In this document: in pieces, positions 10,777 through 50,558 of the stretch
Layout: every line of letters begins with the position of its first letter
How positions within the stretch are numbered: the stretch's first letter is position 1
The notes under the pieces: model-generated
Database searches by the model: none
Seen by the model: only the letters and a program-made list of their open reading frames with translations
Told to the model about the DNA's origin: nothing
Source: Asaia siamensis
Lineage (GTDB): Bacteria > Pseudomonadota > Alphaproteobacteria > Acetobacterales > Acetobacteraceae
Reading direction: 5' to 3'
NCBI RefSeq assembly: GCF_014635085.1
Contig: NZ_BMCH01000001.1
Coordinates: 1-64,000, forward strand
DNA length: 64,000 nt
Made by a program: the position numbers and the translations under genes

Positions 10777-11622
10777 TCAGGACCCGAAGCTGCGCACCAG
10801 CCCGCCTGCAACCATCTGCCAGCCGTCGATCATCACAAAAAAAATGAGTTTGAAAGGAAGGGAGATGGTCGCTGGCGGAAGCATCATCATGCCAAGACTC
10901 ATCAGGACACTGGACGTGACGATATCGATGATCAGAAAGGGTAGATAAAGAAGGAAACCCATCTCGAAGCCGCGGCTCAACTCTCCAACCATGAAGGCTG
11001 GCATGAGCACGCGCCAAGGCGCGACAGTTGCCTGTGGTGAAGGGGTCAGATTGGCGAGATGATAAAACGTCGCGAGGTCTGACGGCCTCGCATGGGCCTG
11101 CATGAAGTGACGAAAGGGCTCTGCTGCAGCGGTCAGTCCATCGACCTCTGACATTGTACCGTTGATCATGGGGGCTATGCCCTGACTCCACGATTGCTCA
11201 AAGGTTGGCTGCATGACGAAAAAGGTCAGAAAAAGTGAAAGCCCGATAATCACCGGGTTGGGCGGGGTACCTTGAGCGCCGATAGCCCCCCTCAGAAGCG
11301 ACAGAACAATGATGATGCGTGTGAACGCGGTCACCATGACCAGCAGACTGGGCGCCAGAGAAAGCAGTGTGATCAGCGCAGTGAGCTGTATCAGCCTGCT
11401 TGTTGTGCCGCTGTTGCTACCATCATGACCGAGATCGAGCGTCAGGGACTGCGCGTGGGCTGATGAGGAGAAGCCCAGAAGTACGATCGCCAGCACAAAA
11501 GCCAGAGGCAGCAGGCAGCCCTGTTTTTTCACGGGGCTCAGTTCCGGCAGTCTGTCAGCAGAAAAAAGAGACGGTACAAGCATTCGTGCCGACAGAGGCC
11601 AATAGGAGGGGGCAGCGATCAC
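10777..11622 (-). CDS. fliP: Flagellar export gate protein FliP
   Basis: 281 residues, an inner-membrane component of the type III export gate. A cleavable signal-like segment (about 37-58, LLPLAFVLAIVLLGFSSSAHAQ) precedes the first family helix. TAFTRIIIVLSLLRGAIG, TPPNPVIIGLSLFLTFF and the closing LPFKLIFFVMIDGWQMV are family signatures. The N-terminus has about 35 extra residues compared with common FliP. The start is GTG at 11622, sharing one base with the fliO stop (TAGTG); a later start nearer the signal peptide is possible. fliQ and fliR, usual neighbours, are not present downstream. Confidence 0.93.
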   Translation of the reverse strand: MIAAPSYWPLSARMLVPSLFSADRLPELSPVKKQGCLLPLAFVLAIVLLGFSSSAHAQSLTLDLGHDGSNSGTTSRLIQLTALITLLSLAPSLLVMVTAFTRIIIVLSLLRGAIGAQGTPPNPVIIGLSLFLTFFVMQPTFEQSWSQGIAPMINGTMSEVDGLTAAAEPFRHFMQAHARPSDLATFYHLANLTPSPQATVAPWRVLMPAFMVGELSRGFEMGFLLYLPFLIIDIVTSSVLMSLGMMMLPPATISLPFKLIFFVMIDGWQMVAGGLVRSFGS

Positions 11623-11939
11623 TATCGGGTCTCCGGCAGCGTTGCGGTAACCGGAAACGATGTTTCAGGTTGGGTCGTATCGGTCTCAGGCGCGACCCAG
11701 CCCAGAAAAAGATCCGTCTCACCGCCGGTGAGAATGAGGCCGGTCCGATCCTGACATCTGAAGAGCGACAGTCTGCGTTTGGAATCGAGAGAGAGAGACT
11801 CGATAAGGCCGAGTTGAGCGGATTGATGGCGGCGGCCAAGGCGTGGCTGCAGATAGACAATGGCAAAGCGCAAGAGAAAGATAAGCGCGATGACCGTGAT
11901 GAAGGACGCCGCGTAATCGATCCAGGAATGCAGCGTCAT
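11622..11939 (-). CDS. fliO: FliO family export apparatus assembly protein
   Basis: 105 residues with one transmembrane helix (about 10-30, YAASFITVIALIFLLRFAIVYL) and a short cytoplasmic domain containing LGLIESLSLDSKRRLSLFRC and LILTGGETDLFLGW, the beta-rich FliO signature (roughly LDxKRRLxLVRxDxxEHLLLxGG). FliO assists assembly of the FliP ring. It lies between fliN and fliP and overlaps fliP by one base. Sequence conservation in FliO is low, but fold features and context agree. Confidence 0.82.
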   Translation of the reverse strand: MTLHSWIDYAASFITVIALIFLLRFAIVYLQPRLGRRHQSAQLGLIESLSLDSKRRLSLFRCQDRTGLILTGGETDLFLGWVAPETDTTQPETSFPVTATLPETR

Positions 11940-22568: not shown

Positions 22569-23339
22569 TCAGCTCTCCGCGGTGGCTGATCCGCCGTTGC
22601 TTGATCCTGAAGTCGTGGCTGCGCTGAAATTGGTGATGCTGGACAGCGGAATGGATGCGCGTCCCATTTCCACCTCGAGCTCGGAGCTTCCCTTGTGCAC
22701 ACCGGTCACGGTGCCCTTGATCGTGAAAGGCAAATCGGATGTCGCGCCAGTCGAATCGATCGTCTTCACTGATACGCTGTACGCGCCGTCCGCCAGCTGG
22801 TTACCAGAATTATCGGTGCCATCCCACGTCCAGGTGTTGGTACTCGACGCAGCAGCACCGCTCTGGGTCTTGACGATCTTGCCGCTCGAATCGCTGATGG
22901 CGATCGCGACGTCCTGACCCTGTGTGGCAGAGAAGGTCAGAGAGGCCTTGCTGTTCTGCAAGGGCAAAGTCGTCGATGTTGCTGTGGCGGTCTGGCCAAT
23001 CCACTGGCTGCCGGAACTCAGCTGGCTGCTCTCATTCAATGAGATCAGCGATGAGAGTTTGGCATTTGTCTGAACCTGCTGCTCTGTCCCGGCGAACTGC
23101 ACCAGCTCTGACGTAAAGGAATCCGAACTCATCGGGCTGCTCGGGTCCTGGTGCTGAAGTTGGGTCGTGAGCAGGGTGAGAAATGTTGTGTAATTATTCG
23201 CCAGAGACGAGAGGCCAAGGCTTGCAGTTGAGGTCGAATCCGACGTGCTGCCTGAACTTGACGAGTTGGCCGAGGCTTTTGCAGTCGCCTCGGCCGCCTG
23301 GAGAAGCTTCGTGTCATTGCTGATGGTCGACGTATCCAT
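22569..23339 (-). CDS. flgD: Hook assembly scaffold FlgD
   Basis: 256 residues. A Ser/Ala-rich N-terminus precedes the FlgD signature YTTFLTLLTTQLQHQDPSSPMSSDSFTSELVQF, here seen as two adjoining parts. The C-terminal half has the FLG-type Ig-like fold (SGKIVKTQSG, then TWTWDGTDNSGNQLADGAY). FlgD caps the growing hook. Last gene of the fliK-flgD end of the operon, followed by the bidirectional terminator. Secure call. Confidence 0.94.
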   Translation of the reverse strand: MDTSTISNDTKLLQAAEATAKASANSSSSGSTSDSTSTASLGLSSLANNYTTFLTLLTTQLQHQDPSSPMSSDSFTSELVQFAGTEQQVQTNAKLSSLISLNESSQLSSGSQWIGQTATATSTTLPLQNSKASLTFSATQGQDVAIAISDSSGKIVKTQSGAAASSTNTWTWDGTDNSGNQLADGAYSVSVKTIDSTGATSDLPFTIKGTVTGVHKGSSELEVEMGRASIPLSSITNFSAATTSGSSNGGSATAES

Positions 23340-23372: not shown

Positions 23373-25184
23373 TCAGGCCGTGATGTTGATGCGACCCGCC
23401 GGCGACTGCGCCTCTTTCGGCGGGTGTGAAATGGCAGGGCTCGGCTCATTAATTTGCGAGGCCGGCGCCTGGGGCGATAAGCGAGAGTTGGCGCTATTGC
23501 CTTGCTGATTTTGCTGCGGGTTGCTGCCCATAAAGCCTCCGGAGAGGTCGGCTCTTCCGGTATTGTCTTGCTGCGGGCTTCCCTGATGGGAATCGCCGGT
23601 ATTTGTCGCAGGCGTCACGATGTCGAGCCTCATGGCGCTGGTATCGACCCCGGCGGAGTTTAAGGCCGCGAGGAGCTCTTTTCTGTTTCCTGCTAGATGC
23701 TGGGTTGTCAGATCGTCGTCGCTTTGAAGAATGACGCGCGTTGCCAAGCCGCCCTCTCCTTCGAAAATGAGATGCACAGGAGTATTATCCTCTGTCTGCA
23801 CAGTCATTGAGAGTGTGCTCGGTATGTCGGTGCTTGGGGTGCCGACCGCAGACAGGTCCGCCATCTGGCTCGGGGCCTGCAGGTTGGCGGTATTTCCCTG
23901 TGCAAGGACATGATGAGCTTCTACGCCAATCGATGATGGTTTCGCTGCCACGAGAGACTGAAATTCAGAAAGACCATGGATCGCGCTTGCCAGTTCGGTG
24001 ACGGTCGTCTTTTCCTGGCTTGTGGTTTCGGGCTGCTTTTCGTCGGGCGAAGAGGAGCCATCCTCAGCCGCAGCATCTCCGGTCGAATTTAGGACAACAG
24101 CCCCGTTTGCCGGCGAGGTGGCTTGGGACGTTGGGGTGAGCGGAGCAGAGTTTGCGGGCTGATCAGCCTCGCGTGACGGGCTCGCTCCGGTGTTTCCTGG
24201 GACGTTCTGGATGAGGGCGCTTTGCATAGCGGTTGACATCGGGGTCGGTGGTACGGGCGTCGCCATGGGTACGTTAGCTGTGTCATAAAACGTGGACACC
24301 GGAGCAACCTGAACGCCCGCCTCATGGAGGGAACTCCAGTCAGTCTGGTAGACAGGATCGGTCGATACCTGGGCGCCCCTGGTGAGAGAGACGTCGGTGA
24401 TGGTCGCGCCATGGGGAGCCATAAGCCCTGTAATAGGGGGCTTCGAGATCGCGCTGACTTGAGCCGAAGCAGGCTGCTGCGTCGATAGCAATTGTGCTGA
24501 TGCTGATGCTGCCGAGCCGGATCTGGCGGAAAGGGGGGGAGAGGGGAGAGACGTCGAGAAAAACCCAGAGACCGTCGTGCTCTGTGCCTGGGCTGCTACC
24601 GATCCGGAAACAACTGCCAAGACAGGCTGCAGAGTGATCGTGTTACTCAGGGAAGCGCCGGAAGCAACAGTGCTGGTCGAGCCTGAAGCCGTTGCCGAAA
24701 TTAACGAGGATTGCGTCTGAAGAGAGGCGCCGAAAAATAGGTTCGTCATGGCGAGTGTCTCGGCAAAAGGCGTGACGGTAGAAAGGTTGACCGACGCGCT
24801 GATGCTATCGGTGTCGTCGTGGCCACCGGACGAGATCGGGGTTTTCAAGGCTGGGACGGCATCGCTGGAAGAAGGCGCCGCAATTTGCGCCGAGTTGTCA
24901 GAGATGATGCTGTCTCCGCCATTATCCGAGTTATCCGGATGGGCGGCATTTGCGGCGGATACGGTCGCATCATTCTCGCGGCTCTTATTCTCGCTTTTCT
25001 CCTGCGGCATTTGCGCGGCAGTGAGCTGAGCGCCAAATGATTTTACATGCTTTGGGTCAACGCGTGCCTGATTTGTTTTGACGGCGCCACTTGGTGTGGC
25101 TGAGACCCTGTCTCCGCTCGTACTGCGATTCTTGATGCCTTTGACGATATCGTCGGAGAGCGAAAGATTGACAGGAACTCTCAT
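23373..25184 (-). CDS. fliK: Flagellar hook-length control protein FliK
   Basis: 603 residues, mostly low-complexity Ser/Thr/Ala/Pro/Gln, as is normal for a molecular ruler. The conserved C-terminal FliK domain (about 455-540) has LSMTVQTEDNTPVHLIFE, followed by TRVILQSDDDLTTQHLAG and ELLAALNSAGVDTSAMRLDIV; it would contact FlhB for the substrate-specificity switch. The ATG at 25184 has AAAGG shortly upstream. It is longer than the E. coli protein (405), which could relate to the long hook subunit here. Position between motA and flgD supports the call. Confidence 0.88.
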   Translation of the reverse strand: MRVPVNLSLSDDIVKGIKNRSTSGDRVSATPSGAVKTNQARVDPKHVKSFGAQLTAAQMPQEKSENKSRENDATVSAANAAHPDNSDNGGDSIISDNSAQIAAPSSSDAVPALKTPISSGGHDDTDSISASVNLSTVTPFAETLAMTNLFFGASLQTQSSLISATASGSTSTVASGASLSNTITLQPVLAVVSGSVAAQAQSTTVSGFFSTSLPSPPLSARSGSAASASAQLLSTQQPASAQVSAISKPPITGLMAPHGATITDVSLTRGAQVSTDPVYQTDWSSLHEAGVQVAPVSTFYDTANVPMATPVPPTPMSTAMQSALIQNVPGNTGASPSREADQPANSAPLTPTSQATSPANGAVVLNSTGDAAAEDGSSSPDEKQPETTSQEKTTVTELASAIHGLSEFQSLVAAKPSSIGVEAHHVLAQGNTANLQAPSQMADLSAVGTPSTDIPSTLSMTVQTEDNTPVHLIFEGEGGLATRVILQSDDDLTTQHLAGNRKELLAALNSAGVDTSAMRLDIVTPATNTGDSHQGSPQQDNTGRADLSGGFMGSNPQQNQQGNSANSRLSPQAPASQINEPSPAISHPPKEAQSPAGRINITA

Positions 25185-27298: not shown

Positions 27299-28063
27299 TC
27301 AGGCGCCTTTGAGATGCATCATACCAAGACGCGAGGCGGGTGTGCCGCTGAAAGAAGCACGGCCGGCATGGGTGAGGGCTATCGAGGTGTCGAGCCAGAC
27401 CTCGCCACCCAGATCGCGCCAACGCTTGCAGAAGGTGAAGTCCTCGCTCAGATAGGTACCCGTCTCCTGATCGATGCTCCCATCGAAGAGAGCATGACAC
27501 TCGCCACCCTGATCACCATTGGCGGCGTCAATGCGACGATACGCAGTTTCGGGATAATGCTTGATCATGGCAGTAACAGCCTGGCGGCTGATCATCATGA
27601 AGCCAGTTCCAGCGTAATGCGTCCTGAAAAGCGGCCCTTTTTCCCAGCTGGAATGCATTGCATCCGTTTCACCTACGTAGCGAAGCGAGGCGGTTTCCAT
27701 CGCTTCCCCGCGGTTCAGGTTCTCTTGCGTGCCCTTGTCCCAGAAGCGGTCCTTGATCGGGTAAAGGCCAGCGATCACGTCCTTGTCTGCAGCCAGAAGC
27801 CTGGCAGGCGCTTCGGCAGGGAAGCCGATATCGGCGTCGACGAAAAGCAGATGCGTCGCGTCAGAGCGAGTGTAGAACTGATGTACGAGCGTGTTGCGTG
27901 CCCGGCTGATCATCGCGTCATCGCCCAGCAGCGAGAGCGTCATCGGGATGCGAATGATGCTCGTGCAGGCAATAATGGATTCCATATATTCCTGCGTGAC
28001 CATGCCGCCAAAGCAGGGAGTGGCGATGAATATTTTCGCAGGCTGGTTTTCTGTCGGCTGCAT
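27299..28063 (-). CDS. GT-A-like glycosyltransferase in the motor operon
   Basis: 254 residues. IFIATPCFGGMV starts a nucleotide-sugar-binding fold; HLLFVDADIGF holds the DxD metal motif; MMISRQAV and LSEDFTFCKRWRDLGGEVWLD match the second half of small GT-A (GT2-like) enzymes, with a Glu-Asp that could be catalytic. No signal peptide or membrane helix. The ATG has AGGAAG upstream. It lies between fliJ and motB in the same direction, so it is likely co-expressed with the flagellum and may glycosylate flagellin or another flagellar protein; the target and sugar are unknown. Confidence 0.75.
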   Translation of the reverse strand: MQPTENQPAKIFIATPCFGGMVTQEYMESIIACTSIIRIPMTLSLLGDDAMISRARNTLVHQFYTRSDATHLLFVDADIGFPAEAPARLLAADKDVIAGLYPIKDRFWDKGTQENLNRGEAMETASLRYVGETDAMHSSWEKGPLFRTHYAGTGFMMISRQAVTAMIKHYPETAYRRIDAANGDQGGECHALFDGSIDQETGTYLSEDFTFCKRWRDLGGEVWLDTSIALTHAGRASFSGTPASRLGMMHLKGA

Positions 28064-28169: not shown

Positions 28170-28604
28170 TCAAGACGTAAATGAATCGTTGCGCCACTCG
28201 CGGCGAGCAAGTTCGTCAAGCTCGGCGCATTCTCGACGTAGCAGCAAATCATTACGCTCTTTTGCTCGACGCTGAAAGACATCTTGCGTGGCTTTGTGGG
28301 TGACCGCCGCATGCAGAGCGGCGACACGCGCATTTTCGGCGCCAAGACGCGCCTGCTCGTGCGTTTCACGTGCCTGACCGATCGCATTGAGGCCGGTTGG
28401 AAACCAGGCACGGAAATCGTCAAGTTCGCTGCGTCCGATCTCGGCGATCTGCCGCTCCTCCGCCATCGTCTGTTCCGTTTGCTGAAGCTCGACAAGCGCA
28501 CGCTGTTCGGCTTCACGTATGGTCAGGAGGGTTCTTGCGGCGTTCGTCTTTTCGGTCTCCTGTATCTTGATCAGAGTGAGAAGGGCACGTGTTCGCCGGG
28601 TCAT
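28170..28604 (-). CDS. fliJ: FliJ-like export chaperone
   Basis: 144 residues, almost entirely a charged coiled coil (KIQETEKTNAARTLLTIREAEQRALVELQQTEQTMAEE, in several heptads), as in FliJ. It begins at the stop codon of fliI (shared base), the usual fliI-fliJ order. FliJ forms the central stalk of the FliI hexamer and handles export chaperones. Sequence is poorly conserved in this family, so context carries much of the call. Confidence 0.8.
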   Translation of the reverse strand: MTRRTRALLTLIKIQETEKTNAARTLLTIREAEQRALVELQQTEQTMAEERQIAEIGRSELDDFRAWFPTGLNAIGQARETHEQARLGAENARVAALHAAVTHKATQDVFQRRAKERNDLLLRRECAELDELARREWRNDSFTS

Positions 28605-30079
28605 CAGAGAGCCCCCTGTGATGCAAGAATATTACGCAGCGCCAGAAAACTGTCTTCCAGCGTTCGGTCTTCAGACCGTGCCTGACGCAGCAATATGTCC
28701 AGTTGTGGCGCTATACGCAGTGCCATGTCGGATCGGGCATCGTTACCCTCACGGTAGGCTCCCAACTGCACGACATCCTGAATATCCTCCCAGACCGCCA
28801 GAATGGCACGTGCTTCCTGGATCAGATGGTTTTCCTCCACCGAATTGCAGCCGGAAGCGGTTCTCGAGAGAGAGCGCAAGACGTTGATGGCCGGATATCG
28901 GCCAGCCTCGGCGATCCGCCTGTCCATCACGACATGACCGTCGAGTATGCCGCGCACGGCATCGGCCACAGGTTCGTTGTGGTCGTCGCCCTCAACCAGC
29001 ACCGAGTAAATGGCTGTAATCTGTCCTGCAGGCTTGTCTTTGAGCGGAAGGCCGGGCCCCGCTCTTTCAAGAAGGCGCGGGAGTTCTGCGAACACACTCG
29101 GGGGATAACCGCGCGTTGCCGGGGGCTCGCCAGAAGACAGGCCGATCTCCCGCAGCGCGTGACAAAAGCGCGTTACGCTATCCATCAGGATCAGGACAGA
29201 CTTGCCCTGATCGCGAAAATATTCGGCAATCGTTGTTGCGGTGTAGGCTGCTTCTCGCCGCATGAGCGGCGGAGAGTCGGAGGTGGCGACGACCACAATG
29301 GCTTTTGCGAGCCCCTCCGGGCCGAGATCATCCTCAAGAAATTCGCGCACTTCGCGCCCACGTTCGCCAACCAGGGCAATGACGGCGACGTCGCAGTCAC
29401 TGTTGCGGGCAAGCATACCCATCAGGGTCGATTTTCCGACGCCCGATCCGGCAAAAAGACCAAGTCTCTGGCCTTCGCGGCATGTGGCAAAAAGATCGAG
29501 TGCGCTCACGCCCAGCGTCAGGCGCGGTCCAAGCCGGGCGCGTAGAGCGGCCTCTGGCGGTTTGGCTCTCAGATTGCAGTCGACGCCCTTGGGCGAAACT
29601 GGCGCCTTTCCATCGATCGGACGGCCCATAGGGTCGATGACGCGGCCTATCAGCCCATCATTGAGGGTGAGTGTAGCGCCGGTTTTCAGCTGCCTGTGAT
29701 TGGTTGCATGGATATGAAACAACGCACGGCATCCAGCACCAAGCCCGTCGAGCGGACCGAAAGGCATTGCTATTGCGCGCTCACCACGAAAGCCGATGAT
29801 TTCCGCATCGGTACTTCTGCCATCCAGACCGAGGAGAGCGACCCGATCACCGATACCGGTGAAATGACTCATTCCCTCAAGCGTAACAGAAAGCCCGATG
29901 ACGCCTGCAATGCGCCCTTCGAGAGTCGCGATGGGGAGATCTTCGAGCGAGACATGCGTGCCGTCGGTAATGGCGCGGAGTTCCGCCATCATGTCGGCGA
30001 AAAAGCCCCCCTCGGGCGCATGGGGGTCAAGGGGTGACATCATATCGAGAGAGGCTGTGCCGTTCTGGGGGGATATCAA
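28604..30079 (-). CDS. fliI: Flagellar export ATPase FliI
   Basis: 491 residues of the F1-like type III ATPase. Walker A is GLFAGSGVGKSTLMG, Walker B region VLILMDSVTRF, with the family markers GERGREVREFLEDDLG and ATRGYPPSVFAELP. An N-terminal extension of about 35 residues precedes the barrel. The first in-frame start is TTG at 30079, overlapping the stop of the DUF1217 gene (TTGA) without a clear ribosome-binding site; an ATG at 30043 (MMSPLD) is equally possible. FliI powers export together with FliH and FliJ. Secure call. Confidence 0.96.
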   Translation of the reverse strand: MISPQNGTASLDMMSPLDPHAPEGGFFADMMAELRAITDGTHVSLEDLPIATLEGRIAGVIGLSVTLEGMSHFTGIGDRVALLGLDGRSTDAEIIGFRGERAIAMPFGPLDGLGAGCRALFHIHATNHRQLKTGATLTLNDGLIGRVIDPMGRPIDGKAPVSPKGVDCNLRAKPPEAALRARLGPRLTLGVSALDLFATCREGQRLGLFAGSGVGKSTLMGMLARNSDCDVAVIALVGERGREVREFLEDDLGPEGLAKAIVVVATSDSPPLMRREAAYTATTIAEYFRDQGKSVLILMDSVTRFCHALREIGLSSGEPPATRGYPPSVFAELPRLLERAGPGLPLKDKPAGQITAIYSVLVEGDDHNEPVADAVRGILDGHVVMDRRIAEAGRYPAINVLRSLSRTASGCNSVEENHLIQEARAILAVWEDIQDVVQLGAYREGNDARSDMALRIAPQLDILLRQARSEDRTLEDSFLALRNILASQGAL

Positions 30080-31824
30080 AACAGGGCCGAATAGACAGTT
30101 GCTGACGATGAGGAGGAATTGTCATCGAAGAGCGCCAGAATGCCCTGTTTCGACGTGTCGCCGCCAAAGAGATCGAGCATGTTCGACGGCGTATCGACTG
30201 GTTGTGGATTGATTTGCAGCATTGTGAGATATTGCTCAGCATATTTCTGGATCTGGGCAGGTGTTTTCAGTTTGGTGAAATCTACCTTGCTCGTGAGCAT
30301 GCGAAGCTGCTGATTGTAATCCAATGCCCCAAAGGTGGATGGATCGTATCCAGATACCGTCTCGACCACTTTCAATAATGTGCTGTCTGACATCAACTGG
30401 TTGATTGAGGTGACACTCGCCATTTTTCGCGTGAAGTAGAGCGCATTGCCGACGCCATTATCTGTGTTGTCGTCATTCGTCTCGAATTGCTGTTTCTCAT
30501 AATCCGAGACGATCTGGTCGACCGAAACGCCATTGACCGTGCTCTTGACCGTACTGTCTGTCGTCAGAACGGTTTGTGCCGGTTGACTGCTCGTGGAGAG
30601 CTGGGGAGGCTGGATTGAGACGGCATATTGTACGCCGTTGACCGTCGCTTTGAGCGTCGGGATGTCGTGCGAGTATTGGCCATTGACCTGAAGAAGATTG
30701 CCCGAATCGTCAAATCCCACAGAAATCAGTGTGCTGCTGACATTCGAACCGTAGGGGTCAATGATATAGGCGTTCCAGCTATCCGGTGAGGAAGGATCCT
30801 GAGCCCATTTCACAGAGAGATAGGTGCGACCGAGCGAGATATTATTGGCGTCGTTGGTCGACTGGGCAGGATCGAATGGCGCAGTGACATAGGTTTGTCC
30901 GGTCCCGCCGAGCGTGCCAAGCGTGGCGGATGGCATGGTCAGTGTCGTGATGGACGAATTGACGTTCTGCAAGCTGACGGCCTCACTGGTGCTGCTCGTC
31001 TGATAGCTGTTGCCTGCCATAGCGACGCCGCTCGCAGTGCCAACTGTCCCGATGGCAACCGAGACCGATTGGCCGCTTCCCTCGGCGTCATTCAGTGTGA
31101 TGGGAAGTGAGAGCCCACCCGAGGCGCTGGCGGCGATTGTCTTGCCGGTCAGCGTATTGGTAGCTGAGGCTAACGTGCCGTCACTGTTGAACGTGACCTG
31201 AAATGCATTGGCAGCGACGAGAGCATTACCGTCGGCATCGTAGGCGGACACACTCCAACTCAGAGGATCCGAGCTGCTTTGCAGCCATTTGAGGGCAACC
31301 TGATGCGGCGCAGAGAGATCGTCATAGGCCGTGACACTGGGCGACGTGTAGCTCTGCCCTTTTGCGTTGGCCGATGGGAGGGTCGCCGCCATCGTCAGTG
31401 TGTTTGTCGGTGTGTAGGTCGTGCTCAGCGCGGTAGAGCCACTTCCATTGATGAAAGTCGTCTGCGACGAACTGCCCTTGTTCTTTCCCCAGACCGCGAA
31501 CGCATCGGCGAAGGCAAGCCATGTCGCATTCTGCGACGTGCGCGCCAGAGAGGTGCTTGAGGTCGGGTCCTGGGTCAGAAGGTCCTTTATGAGTGCTGTG
31601 GCGTTGCTGTACTGACTCATTCCGAATGCGCCGAGAACGATCTGAAGGGACGAGTAATCTTTCAGAAGCGCATCGGCAGAGGTAATGCCGGAGGCTTTTT
31701 TCTCGAAGGCCGCCACAGCCTGCTTCGTTACGATATCGGTTTTCGCGTAGTTCGATGCGGCCAGGCTCTCATCCTTTATCGCGGAAAGATAGCTCGCGAC
31801 AGGAGAGACGTTCGTGATGGCCAT
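30076..31824 (-). CDS. DUF1217-type flagellar protein with two inserted hook-protein (FlgE D2-like) domains
   Basis: 582 residues. Residues 1-120 (ITSADALLKDYSSLQIVLGAFGMSQ, in part) and about 430-582 (FTRKMASVTSINQLMSD; LRMLTSKVDFTKL) look like the DUF1217 family of alphaproteobacterial flagellar clusters. Between them, residues about 138-410 repeat the middle of FlgE from this window: HQVALKWLQSSSDPLSWSVS versus HHVALTWQQSTTNPLVWTAS, then SAYDADG and VTFNSDGTLAS versus VTFNSNGTLAS. A second, weaker copy (YLSVKWAQDPSSPDSWNAY) parallels the second FlgE repeat. GAGGA precedes the ATG. It probably joins the hook, rod or hook cap; that role is inference. Confidence 0.82.
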   Translation of the reverse strand: MAITNVSPVASYLSAIKDESLAASNYAKTDIVTKQAVAAFEKKASGITSADALLKDYSSLQIVLGAFGMSQYSNATALIKDLLTQDPTSSTSLARTSQNATWLAFADAFAVWGKNKGSSSQTTFINGSGSTALSTTYTPTNTLTMAATLPSANAKGQSYTSPSVTAYDDLSAPHQVALKWLQSSSDPLSWSVSAYDADGNALVAANAFQVTFNSDGTLASATNTLTGKTIAASASGGLSLPITLNDAEGSGQSVSVAIGTVGTASGVAMAGNSYQTSSTSEAVSLQNVNSSITTLTMPSATLGTLGGTGQTYVTAPFDPAQSTNDANNISLGRTYLSVKWAQDPSSPDSWNAYIIDPYGSNVSSTLISVGFDDSGNLLQVNGQYSHDIPTLKATVNGVQYAVSIQPPQLSTSSQPAQTVLTTDSTVKSTVNGVSVDQIVSDYEKQQFETNDDNTDNGVGNALYFTRKMASVTSINQLMSDSTLLKVVETVSGYDPSTFGALDYNQQLRMLTSKVDFTKLKTPAQIQKYAEQYLTMLQINPQPVDTPSNMLDLFGGDTSKQGILALFDDNSSSSSATVYSALF

Positions 31825-32068: not shown

Positions 32069-34264
32069 TCAGGTGATGGTCTCGATCGTCTTGATGCGCG
32101 CGCGCGGATAGATTTCTGCCTGTGAAAGCACCGGCACGGTCGGACGTACGCGCTCGACAATGGACCGCATGGAGTCTCTTACCGTGGAGGAAACAACGAT
32201 GACCGGTACCTCGCCACTTGCCGACACGGCATTGAAGGCGTCGCGCAATTTGCCGACGAAACGGTTCAGCATCGATGGCGGCATGGCCAGACGTCTTTCA
32301 TCTCCCTGGCCTGCGATATGGGTCGCGAAATCGTTCTCCCATTCCGGTGAGAGGGTGATCATCGGAATGTAACCACCAGGTCCTTCAAGTCCGCTGCAGA
32401 TCTGTCGTGAGAGGCGTATACGGACATGACCGGTCAGTGCCTGTATGCCGCGCAGGCCCAGCCCGCTACCTTCCTGGATGCTTTCCAGAATGGTCGGCAG
32501 ATCGCGTATCGATACCCGTTCGGCCAGAAGCGACTGCAGCACACGCTGCAACGTGCTGAGCGTCACTTGCGAGGGGATCAGATCGCTTACCAGCTTCTGC
32601 TGGTCCCGGGGCAATTCATCGAGCAGAGCCTGTGTTGCCACATAGGTCAGCAAATCGGGCAGATTTTGCCTGACCAGTTCACTGAGGTGGGTGACGAGCA
32701 CGCTCGCCGGATCGACTACCGTGCATTTCATCGCCACGGCGCGTGGCTTGAGAGCGGGGGCGATCCAAACAGCGGGCAGACCGAAGGCCGGTTCGGTTGT
32801 GCGGTCACCCTCCAGATCCGGAATGCCGCCCGAGGGCGTCATGGCCATCAGGCGGCCCGGACGAACCTCACCGGAACCGATCGTGATCTCCTTAAGTTTG
32901 ATGACATAGCGCTCAGAGGGCAGAAGGATATTGTCCTGAATGCGGATCGGGGGCGTAATGAAGCCCATTTCGGAAGCTATGGTGCGTCTGAGGGCTTTGA
33001 TCTGTTCGGTGAGCTGTGCATTGTCGCCATTGGTCATGGGCAAGAGACCGAAGCCGAGCTCGAGGCGCAAAAGATCGAGCTTGAGCACTTCCGAAATCGG
33101 GGTTGCGCTCGGCGGCGGCGCATTTTCCGTGACATTGTCTTCAGAAGGGTCCTGCACGGGTACCTTCCAGCGCCACCACGCCGCTGCGCCCGCCAAGCCT
33201 GAAATCGCCAGGAATGGCAGCGCAGGCAAACCCGGCATCAGAGCGAAGCACCCTGAAAGTACGGCGGCCATCGCCATTGGCTTGGGATTGCCACCAAGCT
33301 GACGCACAAGAGTGACGTCGGCCGAGCCTGCCGTTCCACCCTTGGTGACGACGATGCCTGAGGCAGTCGAGACGAGAAGTGCCGGAATTTGGGAGACAAG
33401 CCCGTCACCGACAGTCAGGGTGGTGAAGGTGCTGGCCGCATCGCCAATCGGCATGCCGTGACGAAGTACGCCGATGGCAAGCCCGCCTACGATATTGATG
33501 GCCGTGATGATGAGGGCGGCAATGGCATCGCCTCTTACGAATTTGGCCGCGCCATCCATCGCGCCGTAAAATGAGCTTTCATCTTCAAGCTCCTTCCGGC
33601 GCAGGCGGGCCGTGCGATCATTGATGGCGCCGGAAGAAAGCTCGGCGTCGATTGCCATCTGCTTGCCAGGCATCGAGTCGAGAAAGAAGCGTGCTGCGAC
33701 TTCTGCAATACGGCCGGACCCTTTGGTGATGACCATGAAATTTACGACGAGGAGAATGCTGAAAACAATGCCGCCGATGACGACATCTCCGCCCATGAGG
33801 AAGCCGCCGAATGCGGCCACCACATGGCCTGCAGCGTAGGTGCCCTCGCTGCCATGGCTCAGAATAAGGCGCGTGGTGGCAATCTCCAGCGACAGGCGCA
33901 GCAGGGTCGTCAGAAGCAGAAGTGTCGGAAAAGAGGTGAATTCGATCGGGCGTTCCAGAAACAGCGACACCATCAGGACGAGTACGGATGAGGTGATCGA
34001 CAGGGACAGCCCGAGATCGAGAATGAATGTTGGAAGTGGAATGATCAGAATAGACAGCAGCAGCAACACGCCAATGGCCAGGCCCACATCGGTGCCAGGA
34101 ATGGCCGCACGCCATGAGGACTTGTAACTGCCGCTGCGCCAAGATTCCGAAGCGCGCGTGGCCTGACTGGAAAGAGCTGAAAAAAGCTTGGTCGTGACAG
34201 CTTTGCCGGGATATGGCTTGAGGGCGCCGGGTCCGGGGCCGGAAGAGCCTTTCGCGGTGTCCAA
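32069..34264 (-). CDS. flhA: Flagellar export gate protein FlhA
   Basis: 731 residues. About eight transmembrane helices fill residues 60-350, with the FHIPEP signature region LFLERPIEFTSFPTLLLLTTLLRLSLEIATT (two halves) and FVRGDAIAALIITAINIVGG. The cytoplasmic nonamer-forming domain follows (about 380-720; VWIAPALKPRA, ILESIQEGSGLGL). It has about 60 extra N-terminal residues. The start is TTG at 34264, since no ATG occurs before the first helix. First gene of the flhA to flgD series on this strand. Secure call. Confidence 0.95.
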   Translation of the reverse strand: MDTAKGSSGPGPGALKPYPGKAVTTKLFSALSSQATRASESWRSGSYKSSWRAAIPGTDVGLAIGVLLLLSILIIPLPTFILDLGLSLSITSSVLVLMVSLFLERPIEFTSFPTLLLLTTLLRLSLEIATTRLILSHGSEGTYAAGHVVAAFGGFLMGGDVVIGGIVFSILLVVNFMVITKGSGRIAEVAARFFLDSMPGKQMAIDAELSSGAINDRTARLRRKELEDESSFYGAMDGAAKFVRGDAIAALIITAINIVGGLAIGVLRHGMPIGDAASTFTTLTVGDGLVSQIPALLVSTASGIVVTKGGTAGSADVTLVRQLGGNPKPMAMAAVLSGCFALMPGLPALPFLAISGLAGAAAWWRWKVPVQDPSEDNVTENAPPPSATPISEVLKLDLLRLELGFGLLPMTNGDNAQLTEQIKALRRTIASEMGFITPPIRIQDNILLPSERYVIKLKEITIGSGEVRPGRLMAMTPSGGIPDLEGDRTTEPAFGLPAVWIAPALKPRAVAMKCTVVDPASVLVTHLSELVRQNLPDLLTYVATQALLDELPRDQQKLVSDLIPSQVTLSTLQRVLQSLLAERVSIRDLPTILESIQEGSGLGLRGIQALTGHVRIRLSRQICSGLEGPGGYIPMITLSPEWENDFATHIAGQGDERRLAMPPSMLNRFVGKLRDAFNAVSASGEVPVIVVSSTVRDSMRSIVERVRPTVPVLSQAEIYPRARIKTIETIT

Positions 34265-34472: not shown

Positions 34473-36086
34473 ATGGTTGATCCAATGAGACAGGACATGA
34501 ACAGCGTGAATGGGCATGAAATTCCATCGTCGCTTTCGGCTGCTGCCCCCCCGCCCGAAGAGGTGGGGTGGTGGAAAATTCCCGGCTCACCGCCTGACGC
34601 CGCAAGGTTTTCGCAGTCATGCGAAGAGCTGTTCCTTTCCAGGAACGGTGTTCTCGGGCTTCAGCGTATTCTTGAAACACTTGCCGTTCATCAGGATGAG
34701 GCGCTTTTGTCGCTTTCGGGGGCGATCCTCGTTCTGCGGCATTCTGTTCGTTACGATATCGTCGATCTTCTGCTGAAGAATGTGCTGCGTCTCCTGCCGG
34801 ATAATGTCGTTGCCCATTGCTTTACGGCGCATCTTTGTATCGTAAGGGGCGGTCTGGCTGAAGGTTGCGCGCATTTCGCCACGCTTATGAGCCGATATCC
34901 CGGACAGAGAATCGAGATTGGCGAATTTGTCTCGATGTCGCTGTTGGAGGTGGGTTATCCTGCCGAAGCGCTGAATGTCACAATGTCGCTCCTCCGGGCA
35001 GGAGACGTCAGTGTCTCGCTATTGAACAATGCCGGGTGCGCGCTGGAGCGGCTCAACCGGTCGACCGAGGCGCTGGCGCTTTATGAGCAGGCGCTCAAGA
35101 TCAATCCTCATTCGCAGGAGGTCGCTTTCGGCTATGCCTGTTCGCTGATTAAGGCAGGGCAGTTCGCACGCGGCTGGCCTGTGTATTTCAATCGTGCACT
35201 ACAGGTGAGCGCCTGGCAGGAAAGCCTGCGTGGGCGGCAACGGCTGAGGCCGGAAAGCGATCTGGCTGGGAAGCGAGTCCTGTTGTTTCAGGAGCAGGGG
35301 CTTGGCGACACGTTGCAGTTCATACGTCACGCATCGGTTCTGGTCGAGCGTGGGGCTGAGGTCAGTGTGCATGTGCCCGGCAGCATTTCCCGGCTGATAA
35401 GCCTGTCCTGCGACAACCTGACCGTTCTCGAGCCAAAGGTAATGCCCGATCTCGAAAGATTCGATTATGTCGCGCCGATCCCGGATCTCCCTTATCTGAC
35501 CGGCATGTGTGCAGTTCAGGATATCCCTGTCAATGTTCCCTATCTTCGCGCCAGCGGGGAGGACATTGCCCGTTTTGAGGCGTTTCTGCCGCCGGGCAGG
35601 CCGCGCATCGGTCTGGTCTGGGCTGGCGAGCGCCGGGGGCGCTCCGAATTTGCTCTGGCAGATATGCGGCGTTCGATCAGTTTCGATGATATGGTGGCCG
35701 CCCTGCTTCCAATCGAGGCCGATATTGTGAACCTTCAATTCGGTGCGGCGCGCGACGCTCTGAAAGACTGGAGGGGCCAGTCCATATCGGACCCAATGGG
35801 TGACGTGTCCGATATGGCCGATACGGCAGCCATCATGCAGAATCTCGACCTCGTAATATCGGTCGATACGTCGCCGGTCCATCTCGCAGGCGCGCTTGGG
35901 CGCCCTGTATGGCTCATCAGTCGCTGGGACGCATGCTGGCGCTGGGGAGATGAGGGGCAGGGAAGCCCCTGGTATCCGACGATGCGTATCTTCCGCTCTC
36001 AGGAGCGAAGCTTTGGGCCCGTTCTGCAGGAGGTTGGAAAGGCGCTGCGCCTTTGGGTGGCTACGTGGCGGCCCCGTAAAACCTAG
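34473..36086 (+). CDS. TPR-glycosyltransferase, FlmG-like (copy 1)
   Basis: 537 residues. An N-terminal helical/TPR half (about 45-240; LNRSTEALALYEQALKINPH) is joined to a GT-B-like half (about 265-530) related to ADP-heptose transferases: LLFQEQGLGDTLQFIRHA, RIGLVWAGERRGRSE, and DLVISVDTSPVHLAGALGRPVW ending in CWRWGDEGQGSPWYP, here given in parts. Caulobacter FlmG, which glycosylates flagellin, has the same TPR plus transferase layout. A paralogue lies at 49152. The gene diverges from flhA and converges on the transglycosylase, sharing the CTAG in which both genes end. Alternative ATGs lie at 34488 and 34497. Confidence 0.8.
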   Translation: MVDPMRQDMNSVNGHEIPSSLSAAAPPPEEVGWWKIPGSPPDAARFSQSCEELFLSRNGVLGLQRILETLAVHQDEALLSLSGAILVLRHSVRYDIVDLLLKNVLRLLPDNVVAHCFTAHLCIVRGGLAEGCAHFATLMSRYPGQRIEIGEFVSMSLLEVGYPAEALNVTMSLLRAGDVSVSLLNNAGCALERLNRSTEALALYEQALKINPHSQEVAFGYACSLIKAGQFARGWPVYFNRALQVSAWQESLRGRQRLRPESDLAGKRVLLFQEQGLGDTLQFIRHASVLVERGAEVSVHVPGSISRLISLSCDNLTVLEPKVMPDLERFDYVAPIPDLPYLTGMCAVQDIPVNVPYLRASGEDIARFEAFLPPGRPRIGLVWAGERRGRSEFALADMRRSISFDDMVAALLPIEADIVNLQFGAARDALKDWRGQSISDPMGDVSDMADTAAIMQNLDLVISVDTSPVHLAGALGRPVWLISRWDACWRWGDEGQGSPWYPTMRIFRSQERSFGPVLQEVGKALRLWVATWRPRKT

Positions 36087-42193: not shown

Positions 42194-43936
42194 TTATTGC
42201 TTCATGGCGATTGTGGTCTGCAACAGCGTGTCAGCTGTGGTAACGACCTTCGTATTGGCGGAATAGGCTTCCTGCGCAACGATAAGCGCTGACAGATCGC
42301 TCGTCAGGTTTGTCGTTGAAGATTCCGTATAGCCGACCGACAAAGTGCCCGTACCGTTTTCGCCAACGACACCGATTGTTGGATTCCCGGAGGCCGTGGT
42401 TGCCGTGTAGGCTTGGCCGTCAACGGCATTCAGGCCATTGACGTTGGCGAAATTGGCGAGGGCGATCTTACCGACGAGCTGCGATGCGCCATTGCCGAAT
42501 TGTGCCATGACCGATCCATCGCTCTGGATCTGAACACCTTCGTAGCTACCCGAATTGACGCTATCGGAGGTGAGGGCGGTCGTATCCAATCCAAGCGTGC
42601 TGGAAGTGGAAAGCAGGGGATTACTGCCATTTGTCAGAGAAGGGAGCGTGATGGTGTAGTCCGAGCCCGTGATCGACAAAGAGGTGGGGACGGGAGTCGA
42701 TGTCGCTACGCCTTGGGCGTTGAAAGTGACAGAGCTGACGCCGCTCAGGACTTCACCGGTTGAGGCATTTACAGCCGAGACATTCCAAGTAGGCGGAGAG
42801 GCAGAAGTTTGCGACCACAGCACCGAAACAGGGATGGTGGATGAGGCTGATCCAGCTGTCGTAGGTATAGCCACCGGCGACGTCATGTAGCTCTGGTTCG
42901 AGCCTGTCGTCGTGCCGATCTGGGCGCTGTTCTCGGTTGCGGTCTGATTGGTCGTGTTGAGGGTCAGGCTCGTTATGGCGCTTTTGCTCGCTGTGCCAGT
43001 CGAGGCCGCCATAATGGTGCCACTGGTCCCGCCGATGGTCCCAAGAGAGAGATTCATCGTCTGGGTAGTGTTGGTCCCATAGGATGCTGTGATTGGCAGG
43101 GTAACGGCAGCGCCGCTCGTGGTCGAGCCGACAGTGGCTCCGCTCGAGTTCGTAACGCTGGCCAGCGTGCCGTTGCTGTTGAACGTGACATTATAGGTGT
43201 TGCTGGCTTGGTCGATATCGCCTGTGCCATCGGCATCATAGGCGCTCGCGGTCCAGACCAAGGGATTGGTCGTGCTCTGTTGCCAGGTTAGGGCAACATG
43301 ATGCTCTGTCGCGTTGGTATCATACACCGTCACGGGCGCCGTCGTGTATGTTTGCGCATCTGACGCGGTATATTTCGAGGCATCTGCTGGCATGGTGCCA
43401 ACCGTGGCCGTCAGGCTGATCGTGTTTGTCTGGGGGGGGCGATAGCTGATATTATCGACGTTGATAGGACTGAGTGTCGTACCCAGCTGCCCTGTTGTGG
43501 GGTCGACCATGTAGCCGTTGAGGTAGTACCCGCTTGTATTGACCAGATAACCCTGGTTATTTTGGGAAAATTCCCCATTTCGTGTAAAATAGCTGCGGTT
43601 CTGGAACTGTGTTGTGCTGGTATTGCTGATGCCAGTCGGCTTCGATACAACAAACAGGCCATTGCCGGATATGGCTGAAGCAAGACTGTTGCTTGTGCTC
43701 GTCGGGGTGCCCTGATTGTCGACGTGCTGCACCGTCACTGCCGAGACGGAATCTGAAATATCTGCCGACGCTGTGCTGCCAATCAGGGAACCGGCGACAA
43801 AATTCTGGAATGAGGTTGTATCAGCCTTGTAACCGACGGTCTGGCTGTTCGCGATGTTGTTGCTCAAATTGGTGAAGGCTGTCGATTGCGCGTTAATGCC
43901 ACTGACAGCGGTCGTAAGGGCGTTGAAAACTGACAT
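42194..43936 (-). CDS. flgE: Flagellar hook protein FlgE with duplicated D2 domain
   Basis: 580 residues, far longer than E. coli FlgE (402). The N-terminal rod-type D0 is LTTAVSGINAQSTAFTNLSNNIANSQTVGYKADT (across 7-40); the C-terminal D0 is LSALIVAQEAYSANTKVVTTADTLLQ. The middle (about 165-435) holds two D2-like modules: one around HHVALTWQQSTTNPLVWTAS (212-231) and a second around VSVLWSQTSASPPTWNVS (370-387). The same pair of modules occurs inside the DUF1217 gene at 30076. GAGGAT precedes the ATG. It stands alone on this strand before fliL, separated by a stem-loop. Hook identity is secure; the role of the extra module is unknown. Confidence 0.95.
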   Translation of the reverse strand: MSVFNALTTAVSGINAQSTAFTNLSNNIANSQTVGYKADTTSFQNFVAGSLIGSTASADISDSVSAVTVQHVDNQGTPTSTSNSLASAISGNGLFVVSKPTGISNTSTTQFQNRSYFTRNGEFSQNNQGYLVNTSGYYLNGYMVDPTTGQLGTTLSPINVDNISYRPPQTNTISLTATVGTMPADASKYTASDAQTYTTAPVTVYDTNATEHHVALTWQQSTTNPLVWTASAYDADGTGDIDQASNTYNVTFNSNGTLASVTNSSGATVGSTTSGAAVTLPITASYGTNTTQTMNLSLGTIGGTSGTIMAASTGTASKSAITSLTLNTTNQTATENSAQIGTTTGSNQSYMTSPVAIPTTAGSASSTIPVSVLWSQTSASPPTWNVSAVNASTGEVLSGVSSVTFNAQGVATSTPVPTSLSITGSDYTITLPSLTNGSNPLLSTSSTLGLDTTALTSDSVNSGSYEGVQIQSDGSVMAQFGNGASQLVGKIALANFANVNGLNAVDGQAYTATTASGNPTIGVVGENGTGTLSVGYTESSTTNLTSDLSALIVAQEAYSANTKVVTTADTLLQTTIAMKQ

Positions 43937-48069: not shown

Positions 48070-49155
48070 ATGAGCAACGCGATTAATCAATATGGTGGGT
48101 CCGCTCTCTCGCTCATTCTCGAAGCGGGTGTGAAGGAGTTGACCGCGCAGCAGGAAACGGCGACCTGGCAGAGCAGCACCGGGATCGTCGCGGCGACCTA
48201 TGCCGATCTTGGCTCGTCCCGGGCCACAGTTCTGGACCTCACGCCCAAGATCACCCAGGTGCAGTCCTGGCAGTCGAACATCTCGAATGCGCAGACAACG
48301 CTCTCTGTGACCGCCACGTCGCTGAACCAGCTGGTCTCCCAAGCTCAGACCCTGTCGACGAACCTGCTCGGGGTTTCGGGTACAGCGACCACGAGTCAGG
48401 TTGCTGCGGCGTCGGCTGCAGCGCAAGCTGCGCTGGCGAGCATGAAGACGCTTTTGAACACGAGCGATGGCACCAATTACGTGTTTGCTGGCACCGATTC
48501 GACGACTTCGCCCGTGAAAGGGCAGACGGCGCTTTCTGATACGTCCCTGGCTCAGCAGATTGCTGCCAGCGTCAAATCGGTGTCCAGCACAGGGGCGAGC
48601 AGCGTCCTCACGCAGATTACTGGCCTGGCGGCTTCAAACGATCCCTCAGTCTCGGTTTTCTCTTCTGCACTTTCTGTTTCGGCTTCTCAGGCTGTGAGCG
48701 GACAGCGTTCCATCATGACTGGCACAAACAGCTCGACGTCTATCGGGATTGTCGCCACGCAAGCGTCGACAACTTCGGCTGCGTCTTCCACCTCGACCGG
48801 CTCGCCCATACGCGATCTCATGCGTGACCTTATGGCGGTGTCTGCCATGAATGGAATGTCGTCCGAGACGCCTGGGTTTTCGGATCTTGCCAAACAGATT
48901 TATACGTCACTTGGCACGACCATCAGCCAATTGACCGAGCAGGAAGGCGCCGTTGGCGGTACGCAAAACAGCCTGACAGCCCAGACGACGTTGCTGAATG
49001 GGGTCAATACCATGCTTGAGACACAGCTTGGTAACGCGCGCAATGCCGATATGGCGACCGTTGCGACGAACGCATCGAATATCAAAACGAGCCTCAACGC
49101 CTCTTATATACTCATTTCGAACATGAAGGGCATGACGCTGGCGGATTACCTTTGA
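48070..49155 (+). CDS. flgL: Hook-filament junction protein FlgL (HAP3)
   Basis: 361 residues with a flagellin-like fold. N-terminal part: ELTAQQETATWQSSTGIVAAT; mid part LLNTSDGTNYVFAGTDSTT, the FlgL version of the flagellin loop; C-terminal helix region LGTTISQLTEQEGAVGGTQN to NASNIKTSLNASYIL. Starts 18 bp after flgK with GGAGCGAGCG upstream. Its stop overlaps the start of the TPR-glycosyltransferase (TTGA). Its length (361) is slightly longer than enteric FlgL (317). Secure by context and termini. Confidence 0.88.
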   Translation: MSNAINQYGGSALSLILEAGVKELTAQQETATWQSSTGIVAATYADLGSSRATVLDLTPKITQVQSWQSNISNAQTTLSVTATSLNQLVSQAQTLSTNLLGVSGTATTSQVAAASAAAQAALASMKTLLNTSDGTNYVFAGTDSTTSPVKGQTALSDTSLAQQIAASVKSVSSTGASSVLTQITGLAASNDPSVSVFSSALSVSASQAVSGQRSIMTGTNSSTSIGIVATQASTTSAASSTSTGSPIRDLMRDLMAVSAMNGMSSETPGFSDLAKQIYTSLGTTISQLTEQEGAVGGTQNSLTAQTTLLNGVNTMLETQLGNARNADMATVATNASNIKTSLNASYILISNMKGMTLADYL

Positions 49156-50558
49156 TCGTGCATCCGGAAGGAAGCGCTGAGTCCCTGCAACTAGCCGGTC
49201 GTCTGGACGAAGCACGGCACGCTTATGAAGCACGGTTAAAGGTCGATCCCAGCGATTCGAAAACCCTGTGCAATTATGGTGGTCTTCTGAATCTCCTGAA
49301 CCGTTTCAACGAGGCGATGGTCTTTCTGATACGAGCGGTTCAAAACGATCCGGCTCTTGCAGATGGCTGGTCGAATCTGGGTAACAGCTTTCTGCATCTC
49401 AGCCAGTATGAGAACGCGATTGCTTGCTACCGTAACAGCATCCAGCTTCACTCAACCCATGCTCTGGCGCTGAGCAATATGGGTGTTGCCCTTGATCACC
49501 GGGGAGATCACGCGCTGGCGTTGCAGTTTCATCGTCTTGCAATCGCCGCTGCGCCCGAAAATGCCTATAGCCGCACCAATCTTGCCGTATCTCTGTTGCA
49601 GAGCGGTCAGTATCTGGAAGGTTTCAGGGAATATGAGCATCGATGGACCGCACAGGATTACCTGAGCTTTGATCTGAAGAGACCTCGCTGGACCGGGTCA
49701 GTGGCGCCCGGGCAAACCTTGCTGATCTCCACCGAGGGTGGATTTGGTGACGTAATCCAGTTTTCGCGATTTGCCGACCAGGCGGCCCAGCGCGTGGGGC
49801 GTGTAATCCTGCGGGTACGGCCGGCATTGGTATCGCTTCTCCAGGATTCCTTTCCGGATCACGTGGTTTCGAGCGAAGACGACGCGATGCCGGCCCATGA
49901 TCTTGAGTGTCCTGTGCTCAGTCTTCCCATGGCTCTGGGGACGACACTCGAGACAATCCCCCTTGCCCAGGGCTATCTCGTTCTCGACCCAGTCAAGCGG
50001 GTATTCTGGAAGCAGAAGCTCGCTGACGATATGAAGCAGGGTGACGGCAAGTTTTTGCGCGTGGGGCTCGTCTGGGCTGGAGCGCCTCATCCGGAGATAC
50101 AGGCGGCCTTTCTGGCTGACGGAAGACGTTCGACCGATCTGTCGACCTTCGGGCCTTTGGCAGCGATACCGGGCGTCGCTTTCTATAGCCTTCAGATCGG
50201 CGAAAAGGCATTCCAGGCGAGTGTTCCGCCTGCTGGCATGCGCCTGATCGATCATACAAGCTTCCTGCATGATTTCAGCGATACTGCGGCGCTGGTCGGA
50301 GAGCTGGATCTGGTGATTGCCGTCGATACGTCGACCTGCCACGTCGCTGCTGCGCTCGGCAAGCCGACTTGGCTTCTTTCTCGCTATGATCAGTGCTGGC
50401 GATGGCTCTCGGGGCGTATAGGGTCACCTTGGTATGATTCGGTGAGGATCTTCCAGCAGAACGTTCCGCTCGACTGGAGCGGACCGGTTCTTGCAATGAA
50501 GGAAGCCCTGGCTATGTTCTGCCAGCAGCACACAGAGCGCCAAACAGAAGCTGTTTGA
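49152..50558 (+). CDS. TPR-glycosyltransferase, FlmG-like (copy 2)
   Basis: 468 residues. TPR repeats (about 8-155; NLGNSFLHLSQYENAIACYR, GDHALALQFHRLAI) precede a GT-B-like domain (about 180-455): LLISTEGGFGDVIQFSRFA, VGLVWAGAPHPE and DLVIAVDTSTCHVAAALGK, ending with WRWLSGRIGSPWYDSVRIF. It is a paralogue of 34473. Caulobacter FlmG has this layout and glycosylates flagellins bound through its TPRs. Starts TTG at 49152, overlapping the flgL stop, so made with FlgK and FlgL; a flagellin-modifying role is the best inference. The acceptor and sugar are unproved. Confidence 0.82.
   Translation: MIVHPEGSAESLQLAGRLDEARHAYEARLKVDPSDSKTLCNYGGLLNLLNRFNEAMVFLIRAVQNDPALADGWSNLGNSFLHLSQYENAIACYRNSIQLHSTHALALSNMGVALDHRGDHALALQFHRLAIAAAPENAYSRTNLAVSLLQSGQYLEGFREYEHRWTAQDYLSFDLKRPRWTGSVAPGQTLLISTEGGFGDVIQFSRFADQAAQRVGRVILRVRPALVSLLQDSFPDHVVSSEDDAMPAHDLECPVLSLPMALGTTLETIPLAQGYLVLDPVKRVFWKQKLADDMKQGDGKFLRVGLVWAGAPHPEIQAAFLADGRRSTDLSTFGPLAAIPGVAFYSLQIGEKAFQASVPPAGMRLIDHTSFLHDFSDTAALVGELDLVIAVDTSTCHVAAALGKPTWLLSRYDQCWRWLSGRIGSPWYDSVRIFQQNVPLDWSGPVLAMKEALAMFCQQHTERQTEAV

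Follow-up and report, generated by a model that had tools for sequence, protein, structure and literature searches.

A DUF1217 flagellar protein of Asaia siamensis with two hook-protein D2 modules, a candidate filament-assembly factor

The flagellar gene cluster in a 64,000-nucleotide stretch of the acetic acid bacterium Asaia siamensis (assembly GCF_014635085.1, contig NZ_BMCH01000001.1, positions 1 to 64,000; in the following termed the window) encodes a protein of 582 residues in which a DUF1217 body is split by two D2 modules of the type found in the hook protein FlgE. This architecture is certain. The inserted modules cluster in a manner that fits a single transfer and are under purifying selection, and DUF1217 as such co-occurs with flagellar genes and is found in flagellar operon contexts. 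Some flagellated Alphaproteobacteria, e.g. Rhizobiaceae and Phaeobacter inhibens, are reported to be without FliD. Tentatively, we propose that the Asaia protein may be an exported filament-assembly factor, perhaps a stand-in for FliD, with the D2 pair as its exposed head. The gene and its parts are arranged as follows:

30076-31824, minus strand: complete gene of the DUF1217 protein including its two FlgE D2 modules, 582 residues, zero cysteine (Pfam, BLASTP)
31441..31824, minus strand: N-terminal DUF1217 part, residues 1-128 (Pfam PF06748; alignment with uninserted relatives)
30967..31416, minus strand: first FlgE D2 module, residues ~137-286 (Pfam PF07559, BLASTP against the window's own FlgE, tree)
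30535..30966, minus strand: second FlgE D2 module, residues ~287-430 (profile search, hhalign, tree)
30079..30534, minus strand: C-terminal DUF1217 part, residues 431-582 (Pfam PF06748 at 427-524; phmmer to 2o8s)

Domain architecture and origin of the inserted modules

The original prediction, which did not give the strand of the gene, assigned the ends of the protein to DUF1217 and its middle to the D2 region of the window's own FlgE. Both assignments hold. PF06748 (DUF1217) matches at 128 bits (gathering threshold 22.9) in two stretches, one in each half, and a profile built from both parts matches residues 55-292 of chain 2o8s, a solved example of the family (E=6e-24). PF07559 (FlgE_D2) matches at 29.7 bits (cut-off 22.7) in a single stretch comprising residues 156-280. 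BLASTP aligns the protein with the window's FlgE over 327 positions with 35% identity and 56% positives (E=1e-36), and the alignment includes the motifs already pointed out from the sequence, among them the pair VTFNSDGTLAS / VTFNSNGTLAS as well as SAYDADG. The inserted block reaches to around residue 430 (about 30535-31416), slightly beyond the end originally proposed. Uninserted DUF1217 proteins from Acetobacteraceae mostly comprise ~260-300 residues and have a short linker where the Asaia protein contains ~300 extra residues.

A second, weaker module in the same order in both proteins had also been suspected. Although Pfam does not report it separately in the DUF1217 protein, a profile made from first modules alone (47 of the 77 modules in our set) recovered 30 of 30 second modules at E<1e-3, those from the window with 6e-9 (DUF1217) and 5e-7 (FlgE), as compared to 0 of 600 shuffled controls. 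Comparison of first- and second-module profiles with hhalign gave 98.7%. The second modules of the DUF1217 protein and of the window's own FlgE are 30% identical. These two are the only FlgE_D2 proteins in the genome and share the order of their modules; however, the DUF1217 protein is not a FlgE, as Flg_bb_rod, FlgE/F/G D1 and Flg_bbr_C, present in the hook protein, were all absent (Pfam, E up to 1). Likewise, FlgD, FlgD_ig and tudor domains were not found (Pfam, E up to 1) and no NCBIfam model matched at E up to 1. DUF1217 and FlgE_D2 were the sole Pfam families recovered at this threshold. An origin of the DUF1217 body by internal duplication, with the N half corresponding to the C half, received no support from hhalign.

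A scan of the named collection provided 79 DUF1217 loci among the matches listed, all from close relatives. The module tree includes 77 modules (E<1e-10) from 14 DUF1217 and 30 FlgE proteins, the latter stemming from the window's genome and 29 of the genomes behind the 79 loci. In it, first modules of DUF1217 proteins fall into a single clade (100/92), and second modules into another (100/100). A node with 92/85, lower than the starred level, connects the former with the long FlgEs; the bootstrap had not fully settled. Among the FlgEs compared, that of the window is only the 9th nearest for the first module (a) and the 14th nearest for the second (b); in none of the species compared was the own FlgE the best match for either module. 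Since each module type in DUF1217 forms a single clade and the own FlgE is not the nearest, the two-module a+b block was most likely transferred a single time, in an ancestor that Asaia has in common with other acetic acid bacteria. The domain transfer originally postulated thus stands insofar as both modules, in order, derive from a FlgE, while the own flgE as the source is not supported. On the same grounds we dismissed recent gene conversion with the own flgE; several independent FlgE transfers within the acetic acid bacteria are not needed, as each module has a single origin. A tree of DUF1217 bodies (quick method) contains three changes of D2 state, and losses or allele exchange after a single gain are therefore likely.

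The D2 modules are under purifying selection, with dN/dS values of 0.07-0.32 for pairs with computable dS, most Asaia pairs being saturated. Presence of the insert is not tied to the hook type of the respective genome: a short FlgE with one D2 module is encoded in four of the 13 named genomes with insert, and six sampled genomes have a long FlgE but no insert. In Asaia astilbis (L134), the flgE reading frame is broken near its 3' end, which may be real or an assembly error.

Distribution of DUF1217 and of inserts in its loop

The D2 insert is present in 13 of the 79 listed loci (four Asaia, seven Gluconacetobacter, two Acetobacter). No insert is present in 58, and the body is duplicated in one (L118). 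Seven further loci, all from the Acetobacter syzygii group (L064, L066, L067, L068, L071, L073, L074), have the N half of DUF1217 itself repeated four more times at the insertion site, resulting in proteins of ~716 residues. The DUF1217 protein of Gluconacetobacter takamatsuzukensis (L063:8657-11701 and L031:7692-10736) even extends to 1014 residues and contains five D2 modules, four of the a and one of the b type (FlgE_D2 with 70.2 bits in five stretches); its congener at L072 lacks any insert. Yet another insert of ~345 residues has no detectable similarity to D2 and is characterized by repeated GxVxSVDxxGxVTL-like stretches. It occurs in five genomes (L034:7754-9718, L032, L033, L035, L040), and outside of DUF1217 it was not found in these five or in one congener. 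A third kind with threefold repeats, recognized by eye, resides in the second DUF1217 copy of one genome.

Within a sample of 150 genomes from the family, PF06748 was detected in 117, in 11 of these as a split or partial match in a frame of more than 500 residues. Within a second sample of 385 Alphaproteobacteria (the class sample), open frames exceeding 600 residues, many of them near 800-980, are present in 15 (one from Acetobacteraceae) of the 46 genomes with DUF1217. Most of the long-frame loci inspected (e.g. L166, L167, L168, L169, L170) are without a recognized flagellar neighbor. In G194, a genome from another alphaproteobacterial family, several D2-like repeats precede the C half of DUF1217 (L041:2614-4557). 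The frame leaves the contig before the N terminus, NCBIfam yields nothing for it, and a second copy was not found in this 75% complete genome; an independent second D2 transfer is only suggested. As the D2 insert shows, the DUF1217 family accepts outer domains from a different flagellar protein, always in one particular loop, and this uptake suggests that the loop is surface-exposed.

Export, filament assembly and alternative roles

DUF1217 and flagella go together: in the family sample, 108 genomes contain both DUF1217 and FlhA, nine DUF1217 alone, ten FlhA alone and 23 neither. Several features point at export of the protein. It has no hydrophobic N-terminal stretch, and cysteine is nearly absent from the family, with two in 21,724 residues of 80 DUF1217 bodies versus seven in 15,550 residues of 30 FlgEs; all eight further homologs lack it completely. 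Cysteine-free proteins in the window include FlgD, FlgE, FlgK, FlgL, FlgG and the presumed FliK, albeit also MotB, FliL and FlgN, and FliI has six. A catalog of proteins released by Asaia bogorensis (PMC12502724), as far as its accessible parts go, lists a "Flagellar hook protein FlgE D2 domain-containing protein" (A0AAN4R0D8) under both growth conditions, in addition to FlgE, flagellin and hook-associated protein 1; the authors' software assigned it to type II secretion. As the window's genome encodes just FlgE and the DUF1217 protein as FlgE_D2 proteins, A0AAN4R0D8 is most likely the A. bogorensis ortholog of the latter. Taken as a whole, we consider it likely that the DUF1217 protein is exported.

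The occurrence of DUF1217 is largely exclusive of that of the filament cap protein FliD, whose job would be similar to the one proposed here. FlhA is encoded in 221 of the 385 Alphaproteobacteria; of these, two have DUF1217 and FliD, 40 only DUF1217, 77 only FliD and 102 neither (Fisher p=5e-7, kinship ignored). FliD was counted at E<=0.001, with 83 of 86 exceeding the cut-off, and FlhA-negative genomes (four encode DUF1217 and seven FliD, including one that encodes both) were excluded. FliD_C was absent from all 15 Acetobacteraceae searched, whereas control searches were positive in E. coli, B. subtilis and T. maritima. In Cereibacter (C.) sphaeroides, fliD belongs to the Fla1 genes, and flaA, flaF and flbT of Fla2 reside on plasmid A (PMC7277832, seen in part); DUF1217 lies beside the Fla2 flagellin genes. 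In Azospirillum brasilense Sp7, fliD is clustered with a polar flagellin according to the accessible part of PMC12826043, and in another strain of this species DUF1217 is located beside a different flagellin. Rhizobiaceae are stated to lack FliD (PMC6913195), with which a review attributing a FliD gene to Brucella (PMC8781033) disagrees, both sources having been available in part. For P. inhibens, FliD is marked absent in a figure legend (PMC11974857).

In C. sphaeroides 2.4.1, the 124-kb plasmid has the gene order flagellin-flaF-flbT-DUF1217. The same order is present in Salipiger and Paracoccus, flaF-flbT-DUF1217 in Sulfitobacter, flagellin-flaF-flbT-flaG-DUF1217 on a plasmid of Azospirillum brasilense and flagellin-FlaF-DUF1217 in locus L173 (flagellin at 10592-11737). 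The DUF1217 proteins of the five named genera match the profile of those from acetic acid bacteria with E-values of 2e-16 to 2e-26, the C. sphaeroides protein with 4e-23. The study on P. inhibens (PMC11974857), in its accessible parts, gives fliC-flaF-flbT-CP1 for the 124-kb plasmid of C. sphaeroides. As replicon and gene order agree, CP1 (PGA1_c23640 in P. inhibens) is in all likelihood a DUF1217 protein; CP4, a further candidate considered from gene order, was dropped in favor of the fitting CP1. The cluster is named "fla1-type" in that study and "Fla2" in the review on C. sphaeroides (PMC7277832). The tie would provide DUF1217 with a named gene and a fitting mutant phenotype. As reported in the available text (PMC11974857), the CP1 mutant is non-motile and can be complemented. 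Most of the proteins exported by the wild type and a motB mutant were found for it as well, hook, junction and flagellin proteins included, but flagella were not detected and some cells carried an undefined polar structure. The published version, in the part accessible, agrees (PMC12363192). Loss of a filament cap would produce just such a picture. The C. sphaeroides protein has a homologous body and is encoded by a late flagellar gene; it differs from the Asaia protein in lacking the insert and in adjoining flbT instead of fliI.

We envisage that a two-D2 block from a long FlgE entered the loop connecting the DUF1217 halves in a single event, in a common ancestor of Asaia, some Gluconacetobacter and some Acetobacter, and has since been kept by purifying selection. 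Without a hydrophobic N terminus and without cysteine, the body may leave the cell via the flagellar export gate. It would act late, helping flagellin to polymerize at the distal end in FliD-less lineages, and the D2 pair might form a head that points outward, akin to the FliD head domains, which likewise lie between terminal regions as far as the accessible literature describes them. Because of the published data on its homolog CP1, a late role of DUF1217 in filament assembly appears somewhat favored. Whether it is a true cap at the filament tip is more doubtful, and that the D2 pair is the head of such a cap is something we infer only. In the boldest reading, which we regard as rather unlikely, DUF1217 would be the missing filament cap in much of the Alphaproteobacteria, an unrelated replacement of FliD with an exchangeable head that acetic acid bacteria obtained from the hook protein. 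If so, the filament tip in acetic acid bacteria would carry hook-type domains, and DUF1217 would, like FliD and flagellin, combine a conserved base with a freely exchangeable exposed head.

A number of observations weigh against a filament-assembly role. FliD families have no match in the Asaia protein (Pfam, E up to 1). With 102 of 221 FlhA-bearing genomes containing neither protein, a swap is not the whole story, quite apart from kinship having been ignored. In the control genome of Caulobacter vibrioides, too, FlhA is present and DUF1217 and FliD_C are absent, so either a third solution exists or the DUF1217 and FliD models miss members. Regarding gene context, fliI was recognized beside DUF1217 in 39 of the 79 listed loci, as in the window, 40 are without a flagellar gene of the window's set inside the fetched flank, the gene sits with fliI, flhA, motA or flgF in Acetobacteraceae and Phyllobacterium, preceding flgF and fliI in the latter, and it lies outside the flagellar cluster in Gluconobacter oxydans (L124) and Acetobacter estunensis (L077). 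FlaF was recognized nearby in only three of ten class-sample loci (L173, L174, L175), one of them with a flagellin. The identity of CP1 is based on replicon and gene order and not on an accession. In the accessible parts of their study (PMC11974857), the authors found CP1-4 in Rhodobacterales only, few wild-type cells were flagellated, which weakens the mutant phenotype, CP1 was not found in the exoproteome, nor was any CP found outside the cell, and chaperone-like roles were suggested. The A. bogorensis catalog (PMC12502724) includes EF-Tu and ribosomal proteins, such that release is no proof of export, and A0AAN4R0D8 was matched to the DUF1217 protein by description and not by sequence. Finally, a near-saturating motility screen in Agrobacterium fabrum does not name a DUF1217 gene among its hits in the part of the text available.

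Three other roles have to be considered. The original prediction saw a new hook, rod or hook-cap component, in which the inserted D2 pair would pack against the hook surface or continue it. Such a part is possible, the inserted domains being outer domains of the hook protein and the neighboring genes being fliI and flhA or, for Phyllobacterium, also flgF and rod genes. Yet it appears improbable: the insert does not track the own FlgE and occurs alongside short one-module FlgEs, FlgD is already present in the window, DUF1217 is found in flaF-flbT operons, and CP1 mutants still export hook proteins. Much the same low probability applies to a role in the cytoplasm, as a chaperone of flagellin or hook subunits or as a regulator of their export, with D2 as a decoy or a contact to the export machinery. 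The overlap with fliI, the operons with flaF and flbT and the absence of CP1 from the exoproteome, together with the view of the CP1 authors, would all suit a chaperone, but domains that are extracellular in the hook, the near absence of cysteine and the release of a non-FlgE D2 protein by A. bogorensis under both conditions argue otherwise, the latter with the reservation that cytoplasmic proteins are in the same catalog.

It is also conceivable that nearly every insert would be acceptable in this loop and that the D2 pair has no function beyond the role of the DUF1217 body. Several unrelated kinds and sizes of inserts at one site and the many close relatives without any would be in accordance with this idea. 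However, both D2 modules are under purifying selection and the insert has been retained in three genera, and we therefore consider a functionless insert as the least probable of these alternatives. An exported factor that acts late in filament assembly remains our preferred, if tentative, explanation.

Neighboring genes and further observations

The following genes of the window are relevant to the comparisons above:

28604..30079, minus strand: fliI, sharing 4 bases with the end of the DUF1217 gene
32069..34264, minus strand: flhA, upstream neighbor of the DUF1217 gene (PF00771, 802 bits)
42194..43936, minus strand: flgE of the long two-module type, 580 residues, a relative of the donor (Pfam, NCBIfam, module comparison)
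22569-23339: separate FlgD

The overlap indicates that fliI and the DUF1217 gene are probably co-translated. Pfam has no match for the products of 23373-25184 and 27299-28063, which by position are probably FliK and FliH. The named Asaia records nearest to the window are those of A. prunellae (82% identity, best segment), A. astilbis (81%) and Asaia sp. W19 (77%).

As for the naming of the family, the literature on DUF1217, as far as accessible, offers nothing beyond "unknown" and "similar to FlgF", the latter in a paper on Liberibacter. FlgF is likewise the annotation of a DUF1217 protein on plasmid CP010860.1; these names probably derive from the gene neighborhood. SMc03023 is presumably the DUF1217 gene of Sinorhizobium (S.) meliloti. 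One paper, in its available part, lists SMc03023 among motility-related genes of unknown function. The isolated DUF1217 genes of L124 and L077 have cobT and a decarboxylase gene in their vicinity.

Two TPR proteins with a weak match to glycosyltransferase family 9 are encoded within the flagellar cluster of the window (34473-36086 and 49152-50558) and may be candidates for flagellin glycosylation. L172 and L173 have genes next to DUF1217 whose products resemble that of 49152-50558; these were considered as flagellins, but are TPR proteins according to Pfam.

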